This document shows positions 3,610 to 18,309 of a DNA stretch of 20,185 nt, piece after piece (positions within the stretch are counted from its first letter, which is position 1; every line of letters starts with the position of its first letter). Position numbers and translations under genes: made by a program. The stretch lies in the IMG/VR virus record IMGVR_UViG_3300031952_001450, positions 1 to 20,185 of that record. One strand, written 5' to 3'. This DNA comes from a virus. The notes below the pieces were generated by a model. That model saw only the letters and a program-made list of their open reading frames with translations, was not told the origin of the DNA and did no database searches.

Positions 3610-4788
3610 TCATCGTTTACCACCAAATAACCACCCGTAATCAATATAGTCCTGTCTTGATGCTCCTTGTTGTCTTGGGTCTTGGTATCTTTGTTGTATA
3701 TTGGGTGACCCTGGATTGAATGAAATTGACTTGGCCGGAGACTCATCAACGTTAACCGTCCAAGATTCCAACATAGCTTTTGTGTGTTCTGTAACCTTCC
3801 CTAATTGACTAAATGAAGATTCACCAACATAAATCGCCATGGCAATTGACATAAGTAAGTCATCGTGTTGACCCTTTTGATGGTCAGGTCTACCACTGAT
3901 ATAAACAAAAGTATTCATCTCGTTTAATAGACGATTACTATGGATAATAAAATTATGTCTAACTGCTTCTTCTAACGCCGCAATTATTTGAACTCTCTTA
4001 CTATTGAAGTTAATACCGGGTATCTTCTCATTTTGTTTTGGGTCGTATTTCCATTTGTTCTGATAATCAACACCATCAACATATAAATCTCTATATCCCA
4101 ACTCTTGCATTTTTCTAGCGGTGGATACCCCCATTCCTCCGGTTATATCAATAACAACAAAACAAGAATACATATTAGCCCATTTAAACGCAATATCCGC
4201 CATAATGTCTGGTGGTATCTTACCAACATATTCAGCGACTTGTTCCCTCTCATCAAAATCTATAATTTGGAATGTTGAATAATCCTCGCTATCCCCTCTT
4301 GACACGTCAATACCCATAATGTATTTGTGACCAATTACAGGTTCTTTCCATATCCATAAGGAATTTGCCATCATCTTATTTGACGGATCTGAAATAGTAT
4401 TTTCACGAATCTTGGTAAGTGTCTTTGAATCAAACACGTTATCACCAGATCCAAGGAAGTTACAATTATGAGATATAATATCGTTAGTGTAATACAGATT
4501 TTGATTTCCTGAATTTATAATATCATATACATCACTTTCATAGTCGTAATCAATAATATTTATAACATTTAAAAAACCATTATGTGACTTAATTACATCT
4601 TTAATTTTTATATCTTTAACTATAACTTCTTCACCATCATAATTAAAAATTTTATGGTTATAGCTACATCTTAAAGTTATATTATTATCAAAAATAATCT
4701 CTCTGGTCTTCTTACTTAATTTTTGTATTCCATCAAAATTAACAAATCCTTCAGGACTCAAAATTTTATAACGACTATTATTTTTCAT
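3610..4788 (-). CDS. terL: Large terminase C-terminal part preceded by intein C-half (IntC-TerL-C)
   Basis: Residues 1-108 are an intein C-terminal fragment. CSYNHKI (41-47) is block B-like, SDVYDIINSG (85-94) is block F, and DIISHN (103-108) is block G, ending in the catalytic Asn108 followed by the +1 residue Cys109. The rest, residues 109-392, is the gp17-type nuclease half of the large terminase. It begins CNFLGSGDNVF and has acidic residues at D161 (GIDVSRG), D214 (VVIDITGG) and D309/D310 (GQHDDLL). By itself this polypeptide would have no ATPase. It is expected to splice in trans to the product of 5997-7010. Its ATG lies inside the end of the endonuclease gene (11-bp overlap), suggesting translational coupling. 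Confidence 0.93.
   Translation of the reverse strand: MKNNSRYKILSPEGFVNFDGIQKLSKKTREIIFDNNITLRCSYNHKIFNYDGEEVIVKDIKIKDVIKSHNGFLNVINIIDYDYESDVYDIINSGNQNLYYTNDIISHNCNFLGSGDNVFDSKTLTKIRENTISDPSNKMMANSLWIWKEPVIGHKYIMGIDVSRGDSEDYSTFQIIDFDEREQVAEYVGKIPPDIMADIAFKWANMYSCFVVIDITGGMGVSTARKMQELGYRDLYVDGVDYQNKWKYDPKQNEKIPGINFNSKRVQIIAALEEAVRHNFIIHSNRLLNEMNTFVYISGRPDHQKGQHDDLLMSIAMAIYVGESSFSQLGKVTEHTKAMLESWTVNVDESPAKSISFNPGSPNIQQRYQDPRQQGASRQDYIDYGWLFGGKR
4465..4788 (-). other. Split intein C-half (IntC, 108 aa)
   Basis: Starts at the ATG and ends at Asn codon 4467-4465, with the +1 Cys codon at 4464-4462. The His-Asn-Cys junction and the KILSPEGFVNFDGIQK segment resemble IntC of the AceL-TerL intein as I recall it. 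The long IntC paired with a very short IntN means the split is near the N-terminus, unlike cyanobacterial DnaE inteins. Confidence 0.88.
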
Positions 4789-5959
4789 TTTTTAAAAAAT
4801 TAATACATTTATTAATAACTTCCTTAGTTTTTTTTTGACGATTAAATTGGTCATCAGTGATAATTAATACCTCATAACCATTATCATAATAGAATGAATT
4901 TCTTATTATATCTTTATCTTTATCGTGCCAATAACTTCCATCATATTCTATTATTTTATTTTTATATACGAAATCGGCGATATATGTTTTACCATCTTTA
5001 TTAATTGAAATTTCTTCATTTAATTCTTTAAAATGGCAATTTATTTTTTCTTCATTAGACAATTGTTTATAAATTAACCAAAATAGTTCCTGTGAGATTT
5101 TAGAACACGCATTAATTGATAACTTAATTATATTATCAACACGTTTTTTAGCATAATTATTATAGTTAAGTAATCCGTCAGTCTCCCCATATTTATTTAT
5201 AAACCAAGTAAGACTATTAACTTTTTTATTTTTAATATGTAATCTATCTTTTTTATAATACTCCTCCCAATTATCACCATAATTTTTTTTAAAAAATCCT
5301 ATTTGGGGGTAAAAATCGTCGGTTTTATAATAGCAATTTTTACATTTTTTATTAAAATTACAATTATTTGGGTTATATGAAACATAAGATACGTTACAAT
5401 CCTCACATAATAATCTACTAATATCAGAATCATAATCTCTAATAAAAATTATTTTTGATGGAAATTTATTATTATTTTTATTAAACTTACTTAATTCGTT
5501 AGAATGGAATAAAATGCTATTATATAGTTTAGGGTTTATTGATGTTAAAACTCTATTTTTACCTCTACCAAATATATTATCATTAGACATATCATTAACT
5601 AATTTTTTAGTTTCAGATAAATTGAAAACTTCAGTATCACATAAGTTTTTTTTTATTTTGTTCCAACCTTGCTTTACGTAATTGGTATTTCTATCAATAA
5701 AGTCGTCAATTTTTCTATCAAAAGTTAAATAACCACGGTCATTAGTAATCATAGACAAATCACAATTATACTTCATTACGAATAAAACCCTACCCCTAAA
5801 CAATAAATTTACTTTATATGTTTTCTCCAAAGGATTAGTAATCTTAATAATTTTATTATATAGTTCTTTATGCTTCATATGAAAATACGAGCCTATAGAA
5901 ACATCCTCAATATAACCTGTGTTAATTATTTCTTTTTTTATTAATTCTAACGTTTCCAT
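4778..5959 (-). CDS. Free-standing EDxHD (Vsr-like) homing endonuclease
   Basis: 393 aa. The C-terminal domain (about 300-390) has the Vsr-like/EDxHD fold signature: KTYIADFVYKNKIIEYDG with D329, E338 and D340, then WHDKDKD with H345 and D348, then YDNGYEVLIITDDQF. Residues 185-209 contain five Cys (CEDC, then C200, C206, C209), a likely zinc-binding knuckle. Residues 250-273 (WFINKYGETDGLLNYNNYAKK) are a pattern common in phage homing endonucleases. The first 180 residues are not recognised. By family knowledge such enzymes cut intein-free or intron-free alleles and drive spread of the locus. It lies between the terminase halves, 37 nt after one and overlapping the next by 11 bp, in a reading frame different from both, so it is a separate protein. 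Confidence 0.88.
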   Translation of the reverse strand: METLELIKKEIINTGYIEDVSIGSYFHMKHKELYNKIIKITNPLEKTYKVNLLFRGRVLFVMKYNCDLSMITNDRGYLTFDRKIDDFIDRNTNYVKQGWNKIKKNLCDTEVFNLSETKKLVNDMSNDNIFGRGKNRVLTSINPKLYNSILFHSNELSKFNKNNNKFPSKIIFIRDYDSDISRLLCEDCNVSYVSYNPNNCNFNKKCKNCYYKTDDFYPQIGFFKKNYGDNWEEYYKKDRLHIKNKKVNSLTWFINKYGETDGLLNYNNYAKKRVDNIIKLSINACSKISQELFWLIYKQLSNEEKINCHFKELNEEISINKDGKTYIADFVYKNKIIEYDGSYWHDKDKDIIRNSFYYDNGYEVLIITDDQFNRQKKTKEVINKCINFLKNEK

Positions 5960-5963
5960 TTAT

Positions 5964-5972
5964 ATAAATATA
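5964..5972 (-). promoter_or_regulatory. TATTTAT element upstream of homing endonuclease
   Basis: The coding strand reads TATATTTAT ending 4 nt before ATG 5959. If it is a promoter, the endonuclease transcript would be nearly leaderless. Confidence 0.35.
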
Positions 5973-5996
5973 CGGAAACTCGCACAAAAACTAAAA

Positions 5997-7010
5997 TCAA
6001 GTTAAAATGTTATATAATTCCGAAATTGTGACTTTTTTTATTTCTTCGGTTATTATATCTTTTATTGTAATTATTGTGTCACCACCAACACACTCCAATT
6101 CCTGAGAAACTTTTCTCTTATCGTATTTTAACTTCTTTACCATTCCCTCAAACCAAGAAGAACAAGGTTTAAATCCGTCTTTAAAATAAGGTTTTAGTTT
6201 TTCGTGGTCACCATTATTTGGGTGATAATGTTCTATTTTTACCACCGCATCTGATGGGTATTGTTCCTTATTTAACAAATAGTGAATAATATCATCGGTT
6301 TTAACCAAGAACATATCTTTAGTATATCTTGGATCCCTATACCAAAACATTTCAGATATTTTAAAATCATTAAACCCTCTTAACGCCTGGTCATAGATTT
6401 CGTAATAAATGGGATCATACCCGTTTGGTGTTGAGATTACAATAACTTTACCACCCGTAGATAGTGAAGCCATACAGGCTGACCAAAAATCTGAATCCGC
6501 CTCAATGTAAGCCGCTTCATCAAATATTAGTATTGTTGGTGTGTAACCACGTAAAGCATCCTTAGATGTTGCAACCGCTTTTACCTCACAACCATTTGTT
6601 AATTTATAATGTCTCTGTGAGTTCTTTTCTTTAGCGAACCCAATATCAACCCAAGACGGCCATTGTTCAATAAACCCTCTAACTTTATTAGCCATCTCTT
6701 GGGCGGTATCCAATTTATTGGCGATAATTAGAATCTTCTCAGGGGTTTGTTTTTTCGCGAAGGCTATTTTCTTAGACGCCCAAGCGGCAGTTACGGTGGA
6801 TACACCTGCCTGTCTATACTTTAGGGCAATATTCTCATTACTATTCTCGTAATCATCAAGTAATGATACTTGGTCGGGAAATAACTCCAAAGGAACGAAT
6901 TTAGATACCGTATTATCATACGTCTGTAAATACGTTTTAAGTGCATAAGGGGTGTCCCTCATACACTTAACATATTCTATTAAAACTTGTTCCTTTGTTA
7001 TATTTTGCAT
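5997..7010 (-). CDS. terL: Large terminase N-terminal part fused to intein N-half (TerL-N-IntN)
   Basis: Residues 1-306 are the ATPase half of a gp17-type packaging motor. They contain a Walker A variant KYRQAGVST (64-72), Walker B TILIFDE (159-165) and coupling motif ISTPNG (192-197). At Cys307 the sequence leaves the terminase: CVGGDTIITI starts an intein block A, and the protein ends after 31 intein residues. The nuclease half is absent here and is encoded at 3610-4788. Splicing would join ...KVSQELE to CNFLGSG..., the usual gp17 transition, giving about 590 aa (T4 gp17 is 610). The gene starts 3 nt after the stop of the preceding gene, and no Shine-Dalgarno sequence is present. Confidence 0.93.
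   Translation of the reverse strand: MQNITKEQVLIEYVKCMRDTPYALKTYLQTYDNTVSKFVPLELFPDQVSLLDDYENSNENIALKYRQAGVSTVTAAWASKKIAFAKKQTPEKILIIANKLDTAQEMANKVRGFIEQWPSWVDIGFAKEKNSQRHYKLTNGCEVKAVATSKDALRGYTPTILIFDEAAYIEADSDFWSACMASLSTGGKVIVISTPNGYDPIYYEIYDQALRGFNDFKISEMFWYRDPRYTKDMFLVKTDDIIHYLLNKEQYPSDAVVKIEHYHPNNGDHEKLKPYFKDGFKPCSSWFEGMVKKLKYDKRKVSQELECVGGDTIITIKDIITEEIKKVTISELYNILT
6000..6092 (-). other. Split intein N-half (IntN, 31 aa)
   Basis: Begins with the catalytic Cys codon (6092-6090) directly after QELE and carries CVGGDT, a normal block A. It stops after 31 residues, so the intein is split far upstream of the canonical endonuclease insertion site. Confidence 0.88.
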
Positions 7011-11067: not shown

Positions 11068-11078
11068 ATAAATATATC
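11068..11078 (-). promoter_or_regulatory. TATTTAT element upstream of 58-aa gene
   Basis: The coding strand reads GATATATTTAT, 17 nt before ATG 11050. Confidence 0.4.
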
Positions 11079-11111: not shown

Positions 11112-13274
11112 TTATGCCGTATTATTGATTTGATTAACTAAATTGTTCAAACTACTTTCATAGTTTCTTGATGATGCGTATCTATTATTATTTTTATTTA
11201 CGAAGTTATTTACCAAATCTTTTGCGGTTTTACCGCCAGTTAAATAACTTCTCGCAATTAAATCGTAATAGGATTGTATTCCCGACTGAACATCAGAAAA
11301 ATATTTATTATTACCATCATCAACATTACCCACATTATATGGGTTTTTAGTTTTAATTGGTCTACTATTAGGATTACTACTAAATCCACCCTCTACTGTC
11401 ATTTGAGCTAAAGCTAATTGGGGTGGAACATATTTTTGATATGTACTATATGTGGTTTTAGCCGCTTTAGCCATCATTTCACCTGTTATACCTAATAAAT
11501 TACTACTTCTTGTGATTATAAATTTTTGACAAATATTCTCATATTTTTTATATCCTTCATCACTCATTAAATCAATATCAGTGAATCCTTCACCACCTCC
11601 TGTATTAACCACATCAATATATTTCTTTAAATCTTCCGATTTAATTCCTTTGGATTTAATTTTTTCCACCATAACCTTAATTGTCTCAAGTGTTGCAACT
11701 GAATTAACTGAATTAACTGAATTTTTATCGTTAAAACTACCTACGTATTTTTTATCCACCACAGTAGCAGGGTCTATCTTTGTACCATTAAGGCTAACCG
11801 CGAAATGTAAATGAGGCCCTGTCGATCTACCATGACCCTTATCATTTGCCCCACCACCACTTAAACCTATTACATCCCCTTGCTTTACAATATTACCGGC
11901 ACTAACATTTATTTGTTTACAATGGCAAAAAATAGTTTGATACCCATCGGCATGATTAATTACAATAGTACCACCACAGTTTCCACTATCGTCATGAACC
12001 TTTAAAACTTTACCGTCTAATGGTGAATGTATTTCAGTACCAGAAGGTACCGGAATGTCAGCAGCCCCATGTTTACCATAACCTCTACTTGCATTAAAAT
12101 CACTTCCAATATTAAAAGGGGTAACGGGGGGTAAAAACTTTGATTCACTATTTGTAGATTCCGTATTTGGAGATTCCGTATTTGGAGATTCCTTTTCGGT
12201 TTTTTCTACCTCTTTTAAATTATCCGATTTAAATTTTTCTACTTGACTTGCCGTTTCAGGTCCATATAATCCGTCAGACCCAAATTTAGGTAGATTATAT
12301 CCAAGTAACTCTAATCCGATTTGTATGGTCTCAACTTCTTTTTGGAAGTTCATTTGACCCTTTTGTTGTTGGGATATAGGCCCTTTTATTGATTCTAAAG
12401 TTTCATAGAATTTGGCAACATCATCATCAACAAGATCTGCTTTCTTAGGGTCATCAATCTTAACCTCAGTTTTTTTATCTTTTTTACCTGAGAATATATT
12501 TTTAAAAAAATCTTTTATTCCTTGTTCACCAATTAATTTTTGCTCCAATGACAATTCCTTATCAACTTTCTCGTTTTCAAAGTTGAATAATTTTTCAATA
12601 TACCCATTTCGTCTAAGGTATTTAAATACCAAATTTTCGTAGGATAATTCTCCACCACCTTCTAATCCTGATTGTCTGTATTTTTTAAGTTTATCCTTAA
12701 AACCACCTAATAACTTTAAAGCTGATTCCAAATCCTTACCTTTAGCCGAATCTATAACCTCATCAATTTTCTCAGTCCATTGATTAACTTTTGACATAAG
12801 AACCTCTCTATCGGCCTTGAAATCGGTTTTCTTGGGTGGACTTAACCATTTGTTATATATCAAAGAATAAGCCCCTGATGAAAAATAAGTTTCATTACTA
12901 TCCTGCACATATAACTCAACATCATAACCATAAATTTTAATATTATGTTTAGAATTAAATAAAGTTTTTTTTAATTTAAAAAGTTCTTGGTATAGGTCTA
13001 ATTGGTCTTTAGGGAATTGTTCAAAATCAGCAATTATGTGCAAATCAAAATCTGAATATTTTGACCAGTTATAATTAACCATAGACCCTATGATGTGAGC
13101 ATCAGATACAATAATATCAACACCTAAAAATTCTATGAATTCATAAGCAATTTCTAATAACTTTTCTCTAATTTCAAGTTTAAGTTTTGTGGACTTATTG
13201 TCCTTAACCCACACTTTTGGATTTAGTCCTTTTTTTAAGTCAAAGCTTGATAAAATTTCAGTATCCTTTTTCAT
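11112..13274 (-). CDS. Multidomain nucleotidyltransferase / peptidoglycan hydrolase (720 aa)
   Basis: Four units can be read in order. (1) Residues 40-125 form a nucleotidyltransferase-like domain: GSMVNYNWSKYSDFDLH (63-79) gives the GS...DxD pattern (D75, D77), with D118/E120 as a later acidic pair. (2) Residues 310-350 form a peptidoglycan-binding domain (LLGYNLPKFGSDGLYGPET). (3) Residues 385-505 form an M23 lysostaphin-type peptidase with H402 and D406 in KHGAADI, H451, and HLH (488-490). (4) Residues 585-720 form a glucosaminidase/lysozyme-like domain with candidate catalytic E628 in TVEGGFSS and NPYNVGN after it. There is no signal peptide, so it is either packaged in the virion or released by a holin. 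The 245-352 segment is duplicated in the gene at 14137-15216. TATTTAT lies 6 nt upstream. Confidence 0.82.
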   Translation of the reverse strand: MKKDTEILSSFDLKKGLNPKVWVKDNKSTKLKLEIREKLLEIAYEFIEFLGVDIIVSDAHIIGSMVNYNWSKYSDFDLHIIADFEQFPKDQLDLYQELFKLKKTLFNSKHNIKIYGYDVELYVQDSNETYFSSGAYSLIYNKWLSPPKKTDFKADREVLMSKVNQWTEKIDEVIDSAKGKDLESALKLLGGFKDKLKKYRQSGLEGGGELSYENLVFKYLRRNGYIEKLFNFENEKVDKELSLEQKLIGEQGIKDFFKNIFSGKKDKKTEVKIDDPKKADLVDDDVAKFYETLESIKGPISQQQKGQMNFQKEVETIQIGLELLGYNLPKFGSDGLYGPETASQVEKFKSDNLKEVEKTEKESPNTESPNTESTNSESKFLPPVTPFNIGSDFNASRGYGKHGAADIPVPSGTEIHSPLDGKVLKVHDDSGNCGGTIVINHADGYQTIFCHCKQINVSAGNIVKQGDVIGLSGGGANDKGHGRSTGPHLHFAVSLNGTKIDPATVVDKKYVGSFNDKNSVNSVNSVATLETIKVMVEKIKSKGIKSEDLKKYIDVVNTGGGEGFTDIDLMSDEGYKKYENICQKFIITRSSNLLGITGEMMAKAAKTTYSTYQKYVPPQLALAQMTVEGGFSSNPNSRPIKTKNPYNVGNVDDGNNKYFSDVQSGIQSYYDLIARSYLTGGKTAKDLVNNFVNKNNNRYASSRNYESSLNNLVNQINNTA
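12216..12539 (-). repeat. Duplicated linker plus peptidoglycan-binding module, copy A
   Basis: It encodes residues 246-353. Over 107 residues it aligns without gaps to copy B at 14731-15054, with about three quarters of residues identical by eye. The segment starts KLIGEQ and ends near KFKSDN. Confidence 0.85.
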
Positions 13275-13615: not shown

Positions 13616-14140
13616 CTATGCTGAGTAAATTGGTGGTGGGTTTATTGAACCGTGTTGTAAAACTTTATCAACTAACCCTCCCGTACCCCATGTTTTCAAT
13701 TGACTTATACACATTTTAGATATTTTTTCAGCACCTGAATCATTCTTTAACCCATCCACTATACAACCATAATAACCATTAAGAAGTGTTTTTACTGTGG
13801 CTTCAACACCATAGGATGGAGTTGAGTAATTCTTAACGCCAACACTATTATAGTTAGTTTTTTTTTCGTCACTTTTAAGGTTTAATGTCGTATTAAATGG
13901 GTTGTTTGTAGATTTACTACCTTCCGCTTGTCTCCATGCATATAAAAATTTAAGGTTACTTTCCGTTATTGGTGCTCCAATACCTTTTAATATTTGTTCA
14001 TAAAATTCTTTATCGTTGTTAACTATGACACCTTCGCTCCCGCTACCACCACCTCCGGTTTTAACCATATCTAAATACTTCTTTAAATCTTCAGATTTAA
14101 TTCCTTTGGATTTAAGTTTTTCTATCATATCCTTAATCAT
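13616..14140 (-). CDS. Muramidase/transglycosylase-like protein (174 aa)
   Basis: The protein begins with MIKDMIEKLKSKGIKSEDLK and a Gly-rich linker (29-35), nearly the same as the linker at 538-560 of the 720-aa protein. Residues 44-170 form a lysozyme-like domain seen in phage wall hydrolases: LYAWRQAEGS with candidate catalytic E73, NNPFNTT (79-85), and PSYGVEATVKTLLNGYYGCIVDGL (108-131). It probably cuts the glycan strand. The start overlaps the stop of the M23 gene (ATGA), so translation is coupled. Together the two genes reproduce the order M23, linker, muramidase found fused in the 720-aa protein. Confidence 0.75.
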   Translation of the reverse strand: MIKDMIEKLKSKGIKSEDLKKYLDMVKTGGGGSGSEGVIVNNDKEFYEQILKGIGAPITESNLKFLYAWRQAEGSKSTNNPFNTTLNLKSDEKKTNYNSVGVKNYSTPSYGVEATVKTLLNGYYGCIVDGLKNDSGAEKISKMCISQLKTWGTGGLVDKVLQHGSINPPPIYSA

Positions 14141-15216
14141 TTCAGGGTTATTGATATACTACCATCTTCTTCGGATTTATATTCACTACCATCTTCATTT
14201 TTCTTTATAGGGGTGTTTGTTGATTTACTAATAGCCCCCTTTAATATATCTAACGGGTCTTCACCAGAATTAAACCCTGAATTTGTTTTATAAACATTAT
14301 AGTGAAGGTGAGGTGCGGTACCGCTAGCATTTCCGCTATTACCTAAAGTCCCTACCTGCTGACCCGCTGACACAAACTCACCTTCTTTAACTGTTATTGA
14401 ATCTAAATGTCCCAACCAATGAGAGAAACCTGTTTTATCGTCTTGAACAATAACAGTTAATCCGTTAGACCCGTATTTAACTTTTCCATCAACAGGGGCT
14501 ACAATAGGTGTACCTTTTTTACCAAATATATCCACCCCAATATGTCCATTTTTATGACCACCGGCACCTGCATTTGTTGCTTTTCTTGTGAAATCAGTAT
14601 TAGCGGTTCCGGCGGGATTATTAAAATCGTCCCAATTTTTATCCCAACCAATATTATATTGACCGCCCGCAATTGGAAAAGTGTCAATATTAGGTAGTGA
14701 CTCATTTAAATGTCTAAATGATTCGTTTAATTTATTATCTGTTTTGAATTTAATAACCGCAGATCCGGTTTCAGATCCAAATAAACCATCAACACCAAAT
14801 TTAGGTAATTCATAACCTAATAATTGTAATGCGATTTGAACTGTCTCAACATCCTTTTGGAAGTCCATTTTACCCTTTTGTTGTTGGGATATAGGTGATT
14901 CTATTGATTCTAAAGTTTTATAGAATTCCGCAACATCGTCATCTACAAGATCAGCTTTCTTAGGGTCATCAATCTTAACATCACCTTCTTTGTCCTTTTT
15001 ACCTGAGAATATGTTATTAAAAAAATTTTTTAGTTTTTGTTCGCCGATTAATTTTTCTTCTACATACGATTCATTATCAACCAACGGTCTCACATCCCCA
15101 AGTTTTGAATTTAATAACTTTTTAAAGTTTTCGGTTACAACTCTAATTTCACTTGTATATTGATTACGAATACTATTTTTCTCGTCTTCCGATAAATTAT
15201 TTAATAAGTGTTTCAT
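14137..15216 (-). CDS. M23 metallopeptidase with peptidoglycan-binding domain (359 aa)
   Basis: The N-terminal 50 residues begin MKHLLNNLSEDEKNSIRNQY. Residues 55-161 are the copy of the duplicated linker and peptidoglycan-binding module, containing LLGYELPKFGVDGLFGSET. Residues 185-325 are an M23 peptidase with H225 and D229 in GHIGVDI, H270 in LGHL, and HLH (303-305), a complete zinc site, so an active endopeptidase on peptide cross-links is likely. It lacks the nucleotidyltransferase domain of its paralogue and has no signal peptide. A terminator separates it from the preceding gene, and TATTTAT lies 15 nt upstream, so this looks like the head of a transcription unit. Confidence 0.85.
   Translation of the reverse strand: MKHLLNNLSEDEKNSIRNQYTSEIRVVTENFKKLLNSKLGDVRPLVDNESYVEEKLIGEQKLKNFFNNIFSGKKDKEGDVKIDDPKKADLVDDDVAEFYKTLESIESPISQQQKGKMDFQKDVETVQIALQLLGYELPKFGVDGLFGSETGSAVIKFKTDNKLNESFRHLNESLPNIDTFPIAGGQYNIGWDKNWDDFNNPAGTANTDFTRKATNAGAGGHKNGHIGVDIFGKKGTPIVAPVDGKVKYGSNGLTVIVQDDKTGFSHWLGHLDSITVKEGEFVSAGQQVGTLGNSGNASGTAPHLHYNVYKTNSGFNSGEDPLDILKGAISKSTNTPIKKNEDGSEYKSEEDGSISITLK
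14731..15054 (-). repeat. Duplicated linker plus peptidoglycan-binding module, copy B
   Basis: Residues 55-162 of the M23 gene; partner of copy A at 12216-12539, same strand, about 2.5 kb apart. Confidence 0.85.
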
Positions 15217-15231
15217 TTTTTTTTATTTATT

Positions 15232-15240
15232 ATAAATATC
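15232..15240 (-). promoter_or_regulatory. TATTTAT element upstream of M23 gene
   Basis: The coding strand reads GATATTTAT followed by AATAAATA, 15 nt before ATG 15216, just after a terminator. Confidence 0.45.
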
Positions 15241-15710: not shown

Positions 15711-15721
15711 ATAAATATATT
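15711..15721 (-). promoter_or_regulatory. TATTTAT element upstream of the 129-aa gene
   Basis: The coding strand reads ATATATTTAT, 15 nt before ATG 15695. Confidence 0.4.
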
Positions 15722-16240: not shown

Positions 16241-16251
16241 GATATATTTAT
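16241..16251 (+). promoter_or_regulatory. TATTTAT element upstream of the ClpC-like gene
   Basis: GATATATTTAT lies 15 nt before ATG 16267. It is the only plus-strand copy in a gene leader, matching the orientation of its gene. Confidence 0.4.
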
Positions 16252-16266
16252 TAAAAAAATAAGATT

Positions 16267-18309
16267 ATGAATGAGATAATGGACGGAGATGGACCTTCAT
16301 CAAGAAAAAAAGGAGACAACGATAGTGGTACTCCTGTACTGGATAACTTCAGTAAAGATTTAAATAAATTGGCCGAGGAAGGTAAATTAGATTCAGTTAT
16401 TGGTAGAGATAAGGAGATATTAAGAATCGCTCAGATCTTATCAAGAAGAAAGAAAAACAATCCTATTATCATTGGAGAACCAGGTTGTGGTAAGACCGCA
16501 ATTGTTGAGGGATTGGCAATGAAAATCCAACAGGGAGAATGCCCAAGAAATTTGGCGGATAAGAGAATCGTCCTATTAGATATGACATCCATTGTTGCGG
16601 GAACAAAATACAGAGGTCAGTTTGAGGAAAGAATGAAAGTGATTATTGAAGAATTACAATCACATCCCAACATTATTATCTTCATAGATGAGATTCACAC
16701 CATTGTAGGTGCGGGTAATTCATCGGGGTCATTGGATGCTTCAAACATATTCAAACCGGCACTAGCGAGAGGTGAGATTCAATGTATCGGAGCGACAACA
16801 CTTGATGAATACCGTAAAAACTTTGAGAAGGACGGAGCATTAGAAAGAAGATTCCAAAAAGTAGTGGTTGACCCTTCAACGAAAGAAGAAACTCTACAAA
16901 TTCTAAAAAACTCAAAAGACAAATACGAGAGTTACCATAAAGTTATTTTTAGTGACGAAGTGTTAATCACTTGTGTTGATTTGGCCGACAGATATATCAC
17001 AGATAGAGAGTTTCCTGATAAGGCGTTTGACATTATGGATGAAGTTGGAGCAAGAAGTCAGGTGGATATTAAAATGCCTGAAGTTATTGAGAAATTGAAA
17101 TTGGACGCAATTGATATTAAACAACAAAAGATTGATGTTGTAAAAAAACAAAATTACGAACAAGCAGCAGAACTTAGAGATAAGGAGAAAAAAATTCTGA
17201 ATAAACTTCATGTGGAAAAAATGAAGTTTGAGGAGGAAATGAATATCAATAAGAAAGAAGTTGAAATTGAGTTAGTTTATGAGGTAGTATCCAATATGAC
17301 AAAAATTCCTGTTGGAAAACTTAACATTGACGATTCAAAATCATTGGTTGATTTGGAAGTTAATATCGGGTCGAAAGTTATTGGTCAATCCGAAGCGGTT
17401 TCAAAAATTTCAAAGGCAATTAGAAGAAATAGATTAGGTATTAAAGACCCAAATAGACCCATAGGATCGTTTATCTTCTTGGGATCCACAGGTGTGGGTA
17501 AAACTCACTTGGCAAAGCAATTGGCAAAAGAGATATTCGGTAGTGAAGATTCTTTAATTAGAGTTGATATGTCCGAATATCAAGAAAAACACTCAATCTC
17601 TCGTTTAATCGGATCTCCTCCGGGATATGTTGGTTATGATGAAGGTGGTCAATTAACTGAACAAGTTAAAAACAAACCATACTCTGTTATTTTATTTGAT
17701 GAGATTGAGAAAGCAAATAAAGACATATTCTCAACTTTACTACAGGTATTGGATGATGGTCACCTCACAGATGGATTGGGAAGAAAAATCAATTTCAAAA
17801 ATTGTCTTATTATTATGACATCAAATATTGGTGTTAAGAAATTACAAGACTTCGGAGCTGGTGTTGGATTCCAAACCAAATCATACGTTGAAGAAGAACA
17901 AAAACGAGATATCCTTAAAAAGGAACTTCAAAAATTCTTCGCACCTGAATTCCTAAACAGAATTGATGATGTGATAATCTTTAACACCCTAAAACAAGAA
18001 CAAATTAACGAAATCGTTAAGATTGAACTTAATAAGTTATCATCAAGATTGACTAAAATCAAATACCAATTTAAATTTGAATCTTCGGTAACTGATATGA
18101 TATCAAAAGTGGGGTTTGATGAAATGTATGGAGCAAGACCTTTAAAGAGAGCAATCCAAGATAAAATTGAGGATTATATTTCCGAGGAAGTTCTTAGAGG
18201 GGAACTTAAAACCGAAACCCCTTATGTGGTTACGGCAGAGAATGACGTTATTATTATAACGGAAGAGAAAAAAGGAAAGAAGGGTAAATCAAAAAAGGAG
18301 GTCGAATGA
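16267..18309 (+). CDS. ClpC-type AAA+ unfoldase lacking the N-domain (680 aa)
   Basis: Two AAA+ modules are complete. D1 has Walker A GEPGCGKT (70-77), pore loop TKYRGQFE (113-120) and Walker B IIFIDE (137-142). D2 has Walker A GSTGVGKT (406-413), pore loop GYVGYDEGG (453-461) and Walker B VILFDE (474-479). The short middle segment has a UVR-like motif NYEQAAELRDKEKK (296-309), as in ClpC, rather than the long ClpB coiled coil. GAGVGFQ (530-536) carries VGF, a ClpP-docking tripeptide, so it may work with a protease. The first AAA+ motif is about 140 residues earlier than in full ClpC: the adaptor-binding N-domain is missing and replaced by a short Ser/Gly/Asp-rich tail. The C-terminus is Lys-rich. 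It is the only plus-strand gene here and ends inside its terminator. Confidence 0.9.
   Translation: MNEIMDGDGPSSRKKGDNDSGTPVLDNFSKDLNKLAEEGKLDSVIGRDKEILRIAQILSRRKKNNPIIIGEPGCGKTAIVEGLAMKIQQGECPRNLADKRIVLLDMTSIVAGTKYRGQFEERMKVIIEELQSHPNIIIFIDEIHTIVGAGNSSGSLDASNIFKPALARGEIQCIGATTLDEYRKNFEKDGALERRFQKVVVDPSTKEETLQILKNSKDKYESYHKVIFSDEVLITCVDLADRYITDREFPDKAFDIMDEVGARSQVDIKMPEVIEKLKLDAIDIKQQKIDVVKKQNYEQAAELRDKEKKILNKLHVEKMKFEEEMNINKKEVEIELVYEVVSNMTKIPVGKLNIDDSKSLVDLEVNIGSKVIGQSEAVSKISKAIRRNRLGIKDPNRPIGSFIFLGSTGVGKTHLAKQLAKEIFGSEDSLIRVDMSEYQEKHSISRLIGSPPGYVGYDEGGQLTEQVKNKPYSVILFDEIEKANKDIFSTLLQVLDDGHLTDGLGRKINFKNCLIIMTSNIGVKKLQDFGAGVGFQTKSYVEEEQKRDILKKELQKFFAPEFLNRIDDVIIFNTLKQEQINEIVKIELNKLSSRLTKIKYQFKFESSVTDMISKVGFDEMYGARPLKRAIQDKIEDYISEEVLRGELKTETPYVVTAENDVIIITEEKKGKKGKSKKEVE

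Follow-up and report, generated by a model that had tools for sequence, protein, structure and literature searches.

The viral DNA analysed here (IMG/VR record IMGVR_UViG_3300031952_001450, 20,185 nucleotides (nt), hereafter the window) carries its large terminase gene, terL, in two pieces. We propose that an atypically split intein very probably forms, together with a free-standing EDxHD homing endonuclease, a mobile element within terL, the two terminase pieces being joined by protein trans-splicing into a packaging motor of 590 amino acids (aa). At the level of sequence, the window and its relatives show three genes, intact intein motifs, an exact empty site, horizontal movement of the insert and a fracture that outlasts the loss of its endonuclease. 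In what follows, W designates the allele of the window and L-numbers designate related IMG/VR locus records.

Organisation of the fractured terL locus

The locus consists of three open reading frames (ORFs) on the minus strand, each in a different frame, which encode TerL-N, the endonuclease and TerL-C. Its features are as follows.

7010-5997, minus strand: TerL-N, 337 aa, comprising 306 extein and 31 intein residues
6093..7010, minus strand: TerL N-extein, gp17-like ATPase domain, 306 aa (Pfam Terminase_6N, 3.4e-13; PHROG terminase large subunit, 6e-26)
5997..6092, minus strand: N-terminal intein half (IntN), 31 aa (CVGGDT...NILT) plus stop; found in occupied alleles and not in empty ones, and resembling CatN (6dsl)
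5960..5996, minus strand: spacer 5' of the endonuclease start, with the promoter-like element ATATTTAT at 5964-5971 and an RNA hairpin that extends into the ORF and encloses the start codon
4778..5959, minus strand (ORF 5959-4778): free-standing EDxHD (VSR-fold) endonuclease, 393 aa, matching 3r3p and 1cw0
4778..4788, minus strand: 11-nt overlap of the endonuclease stop with the TerL-C start, with the letters ATGAAAAATAA in W
4788-3610, minus strand: TerL-C, 392 aa, comprising 108 intein and 284 extein residues
4465..4788, minus strand: C-terminal intein half (IntC), 108 aa, ending in ISHN (...YYTNDIISHN); E = 1.2e-14 to CatC of 6dsl, model Z 14.8 to 6dsl
3610..4464, minus strand: TerL C-extein, nuclease domain, 284 aa, starting at Cys+1 (Cys109) of CNFLGSG; model Z 26.0 to T4 gp17
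4465..6092, minus strand: whole insert, 1,628 bp (IntN, spacer, endonuclease and IntC), exactly missing from L014 and L016-L019; the putative mobile unit

Residues 307-337 of TerL-N read CVGGDTIITIKDIITEEIKKVTISELYNILT. The insertion point is one conserved codon junction of terL, between the ATPase and nuclease domains, and joining the exteins across it (QELE-CNFLGSG) neither loses nor adds a residue relative to uninterrupted relatives. All the elements of a fractured gene are present, namely an essential gene with its exteins distributed over two ORFs, the split-intein halves and an endonuclease ORF between them. The terL-portal gene order and the portal protein are of the T4-like phage type.

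Among the matches listed by the search, terL is uninterrupted in 148 related IMG/VR locus records, with both TerL parts adjoining at gap 0; some of these records share one contig, and the number is not a frequency. The nearest empty alleles (L014, L016-L019) share 97-98% identity with W in TerL-C; what they lack is precisely the 1,628-bp insert, whose boundaries are sharp at the DNA level when compared with L014 and L016. The same fracture is found in two further contigs, L010 (100% identical over the insert) and L011 (97.8%). Conservation around the junction is high (90th percentile), and the Cys+1 codon encodes Cys in 96% of 137 empty alleles; the intein therefore uses a cysteine that the host gene already had. 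A preliminary description of the window had proposed that 31 intein residues begin at Cys307 of TerL-N and that 108 precede Cys109 of TerL-C, around an EDxHD endonuclease gene, with three differing frames and a gapless extein junction. Its coordinates and residues are all right, the ORF positions and the adjoining TerL parts of the 148 records agree with it, every splicing residue of the intein is present, and the uninterrupted allele that it suggested seeking at the same codon was found.

The split intein and the endonuclease

IntC matches chain B of PDB entry 6dsl, the CatC half of a consensus atypical split intein, and the model of IntC alone has the HINT fold, its resemblance to 6dsl extending across 105 residues (Z 13-14 to other inteins). 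The 31-residue IntN alone, which is too short for a significant search, gave no significant match in the PDB; its block-A pattern is like that of CatN (6dsl_A, ...GDTMIEI...EDLYQRLA), which was reached solely via an approximate AceL IntN query. The block A nucleophile is present as Cys at intein position 1 (TerL-N 307, CVGGDT), block B, (T/S)xxH, as SYNH at IntC 42-45, and the C-terminal splicing residues as a penultimate His and terminal Asn (HN, 107-108) followed by Cys109 as Cys+1. Across 10 aligned sequences His45, His107, Asn108 and Cys109 are invariant and Ser42 nearly so, and IntC is under purifying selection (ratio of non-synonymous to synonymous divergence, dN/dS, 0.08-0.15). The lengths of 31 and 108 aa, in a terL gene, fit the class of atypically split TerL inteins (IntN about 25-37 aa, IntC about 104 aa). 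The 6dsl construct, read to compare the Cat exteins with the W junction, ends in HACESRGK. These motifs point to trans-splicing of the TerL halves.

The endonuclease matches I-Bth0305I (3r3p) in sequence with E = 0.001, and in its model, with a mean predicted local distance difference test score (pLDDT) of 80, residues ~286-393 superpose on I-Bth0305I (Z 10.4) and on VSR 1cw0 (Z 9.5). The catalytic motif is IIEYDGxYWH, in which E338, D340 and H345 are invariant among seven aligned sequences, and the N-terminal two thirds of the protein contain a conserved CxxC..CxxC at residues 185-209. Purifying selection acts on the endonuclease (dN/dS 0.14-0.34), which would cleave DNA. Weak matches to it, without intein or TerL, were found in L012 and L013.

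The element ATATTTAT upstream of the endonuclease looks like a promoter element of the lineage. It occurs in the window at 5964-5971, 15232-15239, 15711-15718, 16244-16251, 1692-1699 and 11068-11075; in relatives, 33 copies lie just 5' of ORF starts and 3 in coding sequence, as against 2 and 5 for the reversed motif, and most are situated 13-17 nt ahead of the ATG. The copy belonging to the endonuclease gene is only 5 nt before the ATG in W and is near the start in all alleles examined. It lies inside the RNA hairpin at 5940-5985 that encloses the start codon (z -2.6 in W, -4.0 in L186 and -4.2 in L203). A hairpin 5' of the endonuclease common to all alleles was not found: W, L186 and L203 have a strong one, L187 and L155 none. 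The W hairpin recalls the hairpin and late-promoter control of T4 I-TevI.

Mobility of the insert

The extein tree intersperses occupied alleles with empty ones, and the TerL sequences nearest to that of W come from empty alleles. L186 groups with L203 by its exteins and with W and L015 by its intein and endonuclease; the intein and endonuclease data reject the L186-L203 pairing (approximately unbiased (AU) test, p = 1e-7), and a grouping of L186 with W and L015 is in turn rejected by the exteins (p = 1.8e-4). Among occupied relatives, the flanks of the insert have diverged about 3-4 times as much as the insert itself. W and L011 differ at 36 of 1628 positions in the insert and at 140 of 1999 in the flanks (p = 5e-12), with an abrupt shift at the 5' edge of the insert, and the nucleotide profile of L155 and L197 shows 62 differences in 1642 positions of the insert against 140 in 900 of the 5' flank. 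Synonymous divergence (dS) follows the same pattern, with values for the endonuclease and IntC of 0.066 and 0.197 between W and L011 (exteins 0.40-0.44), 0.126 and 0.133 between L155 and L197 (exteins 0.71-1.0), and 0.31 and 0.60 between L187 and L195 (exteins 1.3-1.55). A co-conversion tract in the TerL flanks was looked for between W and L011 and not found. Homing, with cleavage by the predicted nuclease, would be the simplest cause of the low divergence of the insert. The earlier proposal that the endonuclease moves the whole fracture is supported by this low divergence in three pairs, by the tree conflict and by the scattered occupancy.

Four states at the same junction

Besides the empty alleles, relatives at this junction present three further states. 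The fracture with a full-length EDxHD gene occurs in L186, L203, L155-157 and their duplicates, L197 and L187/L188; contig ends truncate L015 and L098, and L195 has broken frames, probably owing to sequencing errors, and is therefore not taken as evidence of decay. In L100, the fracture persists with the endonuclease deleted (~1 kb) and the IntN and IntC ORFs both open; the region between its halves, of ~160 nt, aligns to both ends of the L155 spacer and endonuclease region. In L201, L202 and L212, the same intein is contiguous, as a mini-intein of 136-139 aa within one TerL ORF, and is 42-67% identical to the split ones, the intein identity over the series of states at the site being 42-98%.

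The intein tree, which rests on ~139 residues and whose deep branches are weakly supported, joins L212 to L100, L155 and L197 (support 97/98) and places L201 and L202 near W, L186 and L015 with weak support. Monophyly of the split forms, to the exclusion of the contiguous ones, is rejected (AU p = 0.009), and split and contiguous states have therefore interconverted in the lineage. A course in which a single fracture preceded two or more fusions, by way of intermediates of the L100 kind, appears to have an even or slightly better chance, because the 11-nt overlap is of equal length in 8 of the 8 split alleles checked and the endonuclease tree largely follows the intein tree. It is a toss-up whether the split intein fused back to a contiguous one at least twice after endonuclease loss, in which case the states would be interconvertible stages of one homing cycle. 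It can also be hypothesised, with some reservation, that the contiguous forms of L201/L202 and L212 are ancestral and that related endonuclease genes repeatedly entered contiguous inteins at one and the same nucleotide. Contiguous to split is the direction usually assumed (PMC12707363), and the weak support of the deep branches leaves room for it; however, the rejection of split-form monophyly, the agreement of the two trees, the common overlap, which favours one insertion, and the deletion intermediate seen in L100 all speak against it.

Other inteins accompany this site. A second, contiguous LAGLIDADG intein lies further downstream in several of these TerL genes, within TerL-C. Inteins are abundant in the packaging genes, with two more in L187 TerL-N, others in the L201 and L202 portal genes and three in L217 TerL (intein-rich regions: L155 7234-9633, L187 1317-4964, L201 571-6977, L202 2-5801, L217 3249-6197 and L227 3621-6077).

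Proposed mechanism and alternative explanations

We propose that TerL-N and TerL-C would be made as two proteins, that IntN and IntC would associate and complete the HINT fold, and that the exteins would then be ligated via Cys1, His/Asn and Cys+1 into the 590-aa gp17-type motor. The endonuclease would cut the empty terL alleles of co-infecting phages, and repair would copy the 1,628-bp insert; since both intein halves would be copied along, the target gene would stay functional. The phage would make its packaging motor only by trans-splicing, which is supported by the single TerL locus in the large occupied contigs and in cultured phages with a fractured terL. Several points weigh against this proposal. 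The low-divergence block between W and L011 runs through IntN and the endonuclease but stops soon after entering IntC, whose final 256 nt are more divergent (14/256 against 22/1372, p = 6e-4); some exchanges were therefore partial and did not carry the whole unit. Ordinary phage recombination without cleavage could also be the source of the low divergence, a second terL may be present elsewhere in the same phage, of which the window is a 20-kb fragment, and the splicing and DNA cleavage of this pair are what we infer from its sequence.

Three other explanations of the locus have been considered. The probability of an assembly or sequencing artefact, joining unrelated loci or making frameshifts, is negligible: the contig is metagenomic and the relative L195 has frameshifts in TerL-N and the endonuclease, but the same structure occurs in L010 and L011 and, diverged, in L186, L203, L155-157, L197 and L187, and its parts are under purifying selection. 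An assembly error is ruled out by the other contigs that carry the same fracture. It is very improbable that terL is in pieces without splicing, its ATPase and nuclease halves working as two non-covalent subunits and its intein tails being dead remnants. Non-covalent subunits of this kind are described for NrdA, which mobE interrupts in an Aeromonas phage, and the cut at the ATPase/nuclease boundary, seen in the TerL-C model, makes a two-subunit enzyme conceivable; yet all the splicing residues are kept, IntC is under the purifying selection described above, the tails have been retained in L100 after endonuclease loss, and relatives with a contiguous intein at this site can obtain TerL only through splicing in cis. 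The locus does not belong to the mobE-split NrdA type, which has no functional intein tails, as its own tails carry all the motifs under purifying selection. It is very unlikely that the element is now immobile, as an old, vertically inherited fracture whose endonuclease is kept for another role such as competitor exclusion. Phage endonucleases can act on competitors, and cleavage is here something that we infer; but the extein tree conflicts strongly with those of intein and endonuclease, the flanks have diverged several-fold more than the insert, and the closest TerL relatives are empty.

Fractured terL in cultured phages

Fractured terL genes are also found in isolates, mostly unrecognised in annotation. 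Vibrio phage Va1 has an EDxHD endonuclease fused to IntC, Providencia PSTRCR_127 and Serratia 92A1 have a free-standing GIY-YIG, Vibrio VP-1 and 1.244 have a GIY-YIG fused to IntN, and Krischvirus phiS, JK32 and kaaroe have another nuclease fused to IntN, with the fracture at the Walker B site; the types of the fused and unnamed nucleases were assigned by eye. The nuclease family at such fractures is not fixed. One TerL-N locus was found per cultured-phage record examined, and since phages with a fractured terL are propagated, the fracture is compatible with viability. Campylobacter Fletchervirus terL (L169, L170, L174; KX879627, GU296433, MT863725) is split at the Walker B motif, its halves being separated by ~24-26 kb in which no endonuclease lies; in NCTC12673, the region matching TerL-C carries no annotated feature. 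A report of 2012 described an 'intein and intron' in terL of phage IBB_35 (PMC3322345), an arrangement which may be related to the Fletchervirus split. In L215 (434-2478), a fractured terL without endonuclease has its halves 5 nt apart.

Other genes in the window

Two proteins, encoded at 11112-13274 and 14137-15216, both have M23 peptidase and peptidoglycan-binding domains, the larger with additional glucosaminidase-like and nucleotidyltransferase-like matches. A ClpB/ClpC-like AAA+ protein is encoded at 16267-18309 on the plus strand, opposite to the structural genes.

Relation to known systems and significance

The arrangement is of an already known kind. Dassa et al. reportedly described, in 2009, fractured genes with split inteins and free-standing EDxHD-type endonucleases, in which, as in W, two extein-intein ORFs flank the endonuclease gene. 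W differs from these in its host gene, terL, and in a split near the N-terminal end of the intein, and comparisons bearing on movement and on endonuclease loss are added. The atypically split TerL inteins AceL-TerL, GOS-TerL and Cat were characterised biochemically earlier and splice in vitro (review PMC11766414; Thiel 2014, Bachmann and Mootz 2015, Stevens 2018). Like W, they combine in terL a short IntN (25-37 aa) with an IntC of ~104 aa, and the W IntC matches CatC in sequence and fold; they were studied as isolated inteins, whereas W can be viewed in its native locus, alongside empty alleles and relatives. I-Bth0305I, an EDxHD homing endonuclease encoded in a group I intron (3r3p; PMC3943268), shares with the W endonuclease a C-terminal catalytic domain, by sequence and fold, in a multi-domain protein, but the W endonuclease is free-standing in a split-intein locus. 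The cultured Va1 (MK387337) has the same kind of fracture at an equivalent junction, with an EDxHD endonuclease ~30% identical to that of W; unlike in W, it is fused in frame to IntC, and the gene is annotated only as 'putative terminase'. What is added here is the evidence of mobility and the natural series of states around the site.

Split inteins are widely used tools, whose natural origin and persistence are mostly conjecture. With one site in one phage lineage found empty, fractured with or without endonuclease, and contiguous, their origin, reversibility and mobility become testable, and the site yields new short-IntN split pairs together with natural contiguous counterparts. Where cultured phages are annotated with 'two terminase genes', these are the pieces of a single fractured gene. 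If the proposed interconversion is true, the cycle would lead from the empty site to the fracture with endonuclease, then to the fracture without it, to the contiguous mini-intein and back to the empty site, and would not be one-way.

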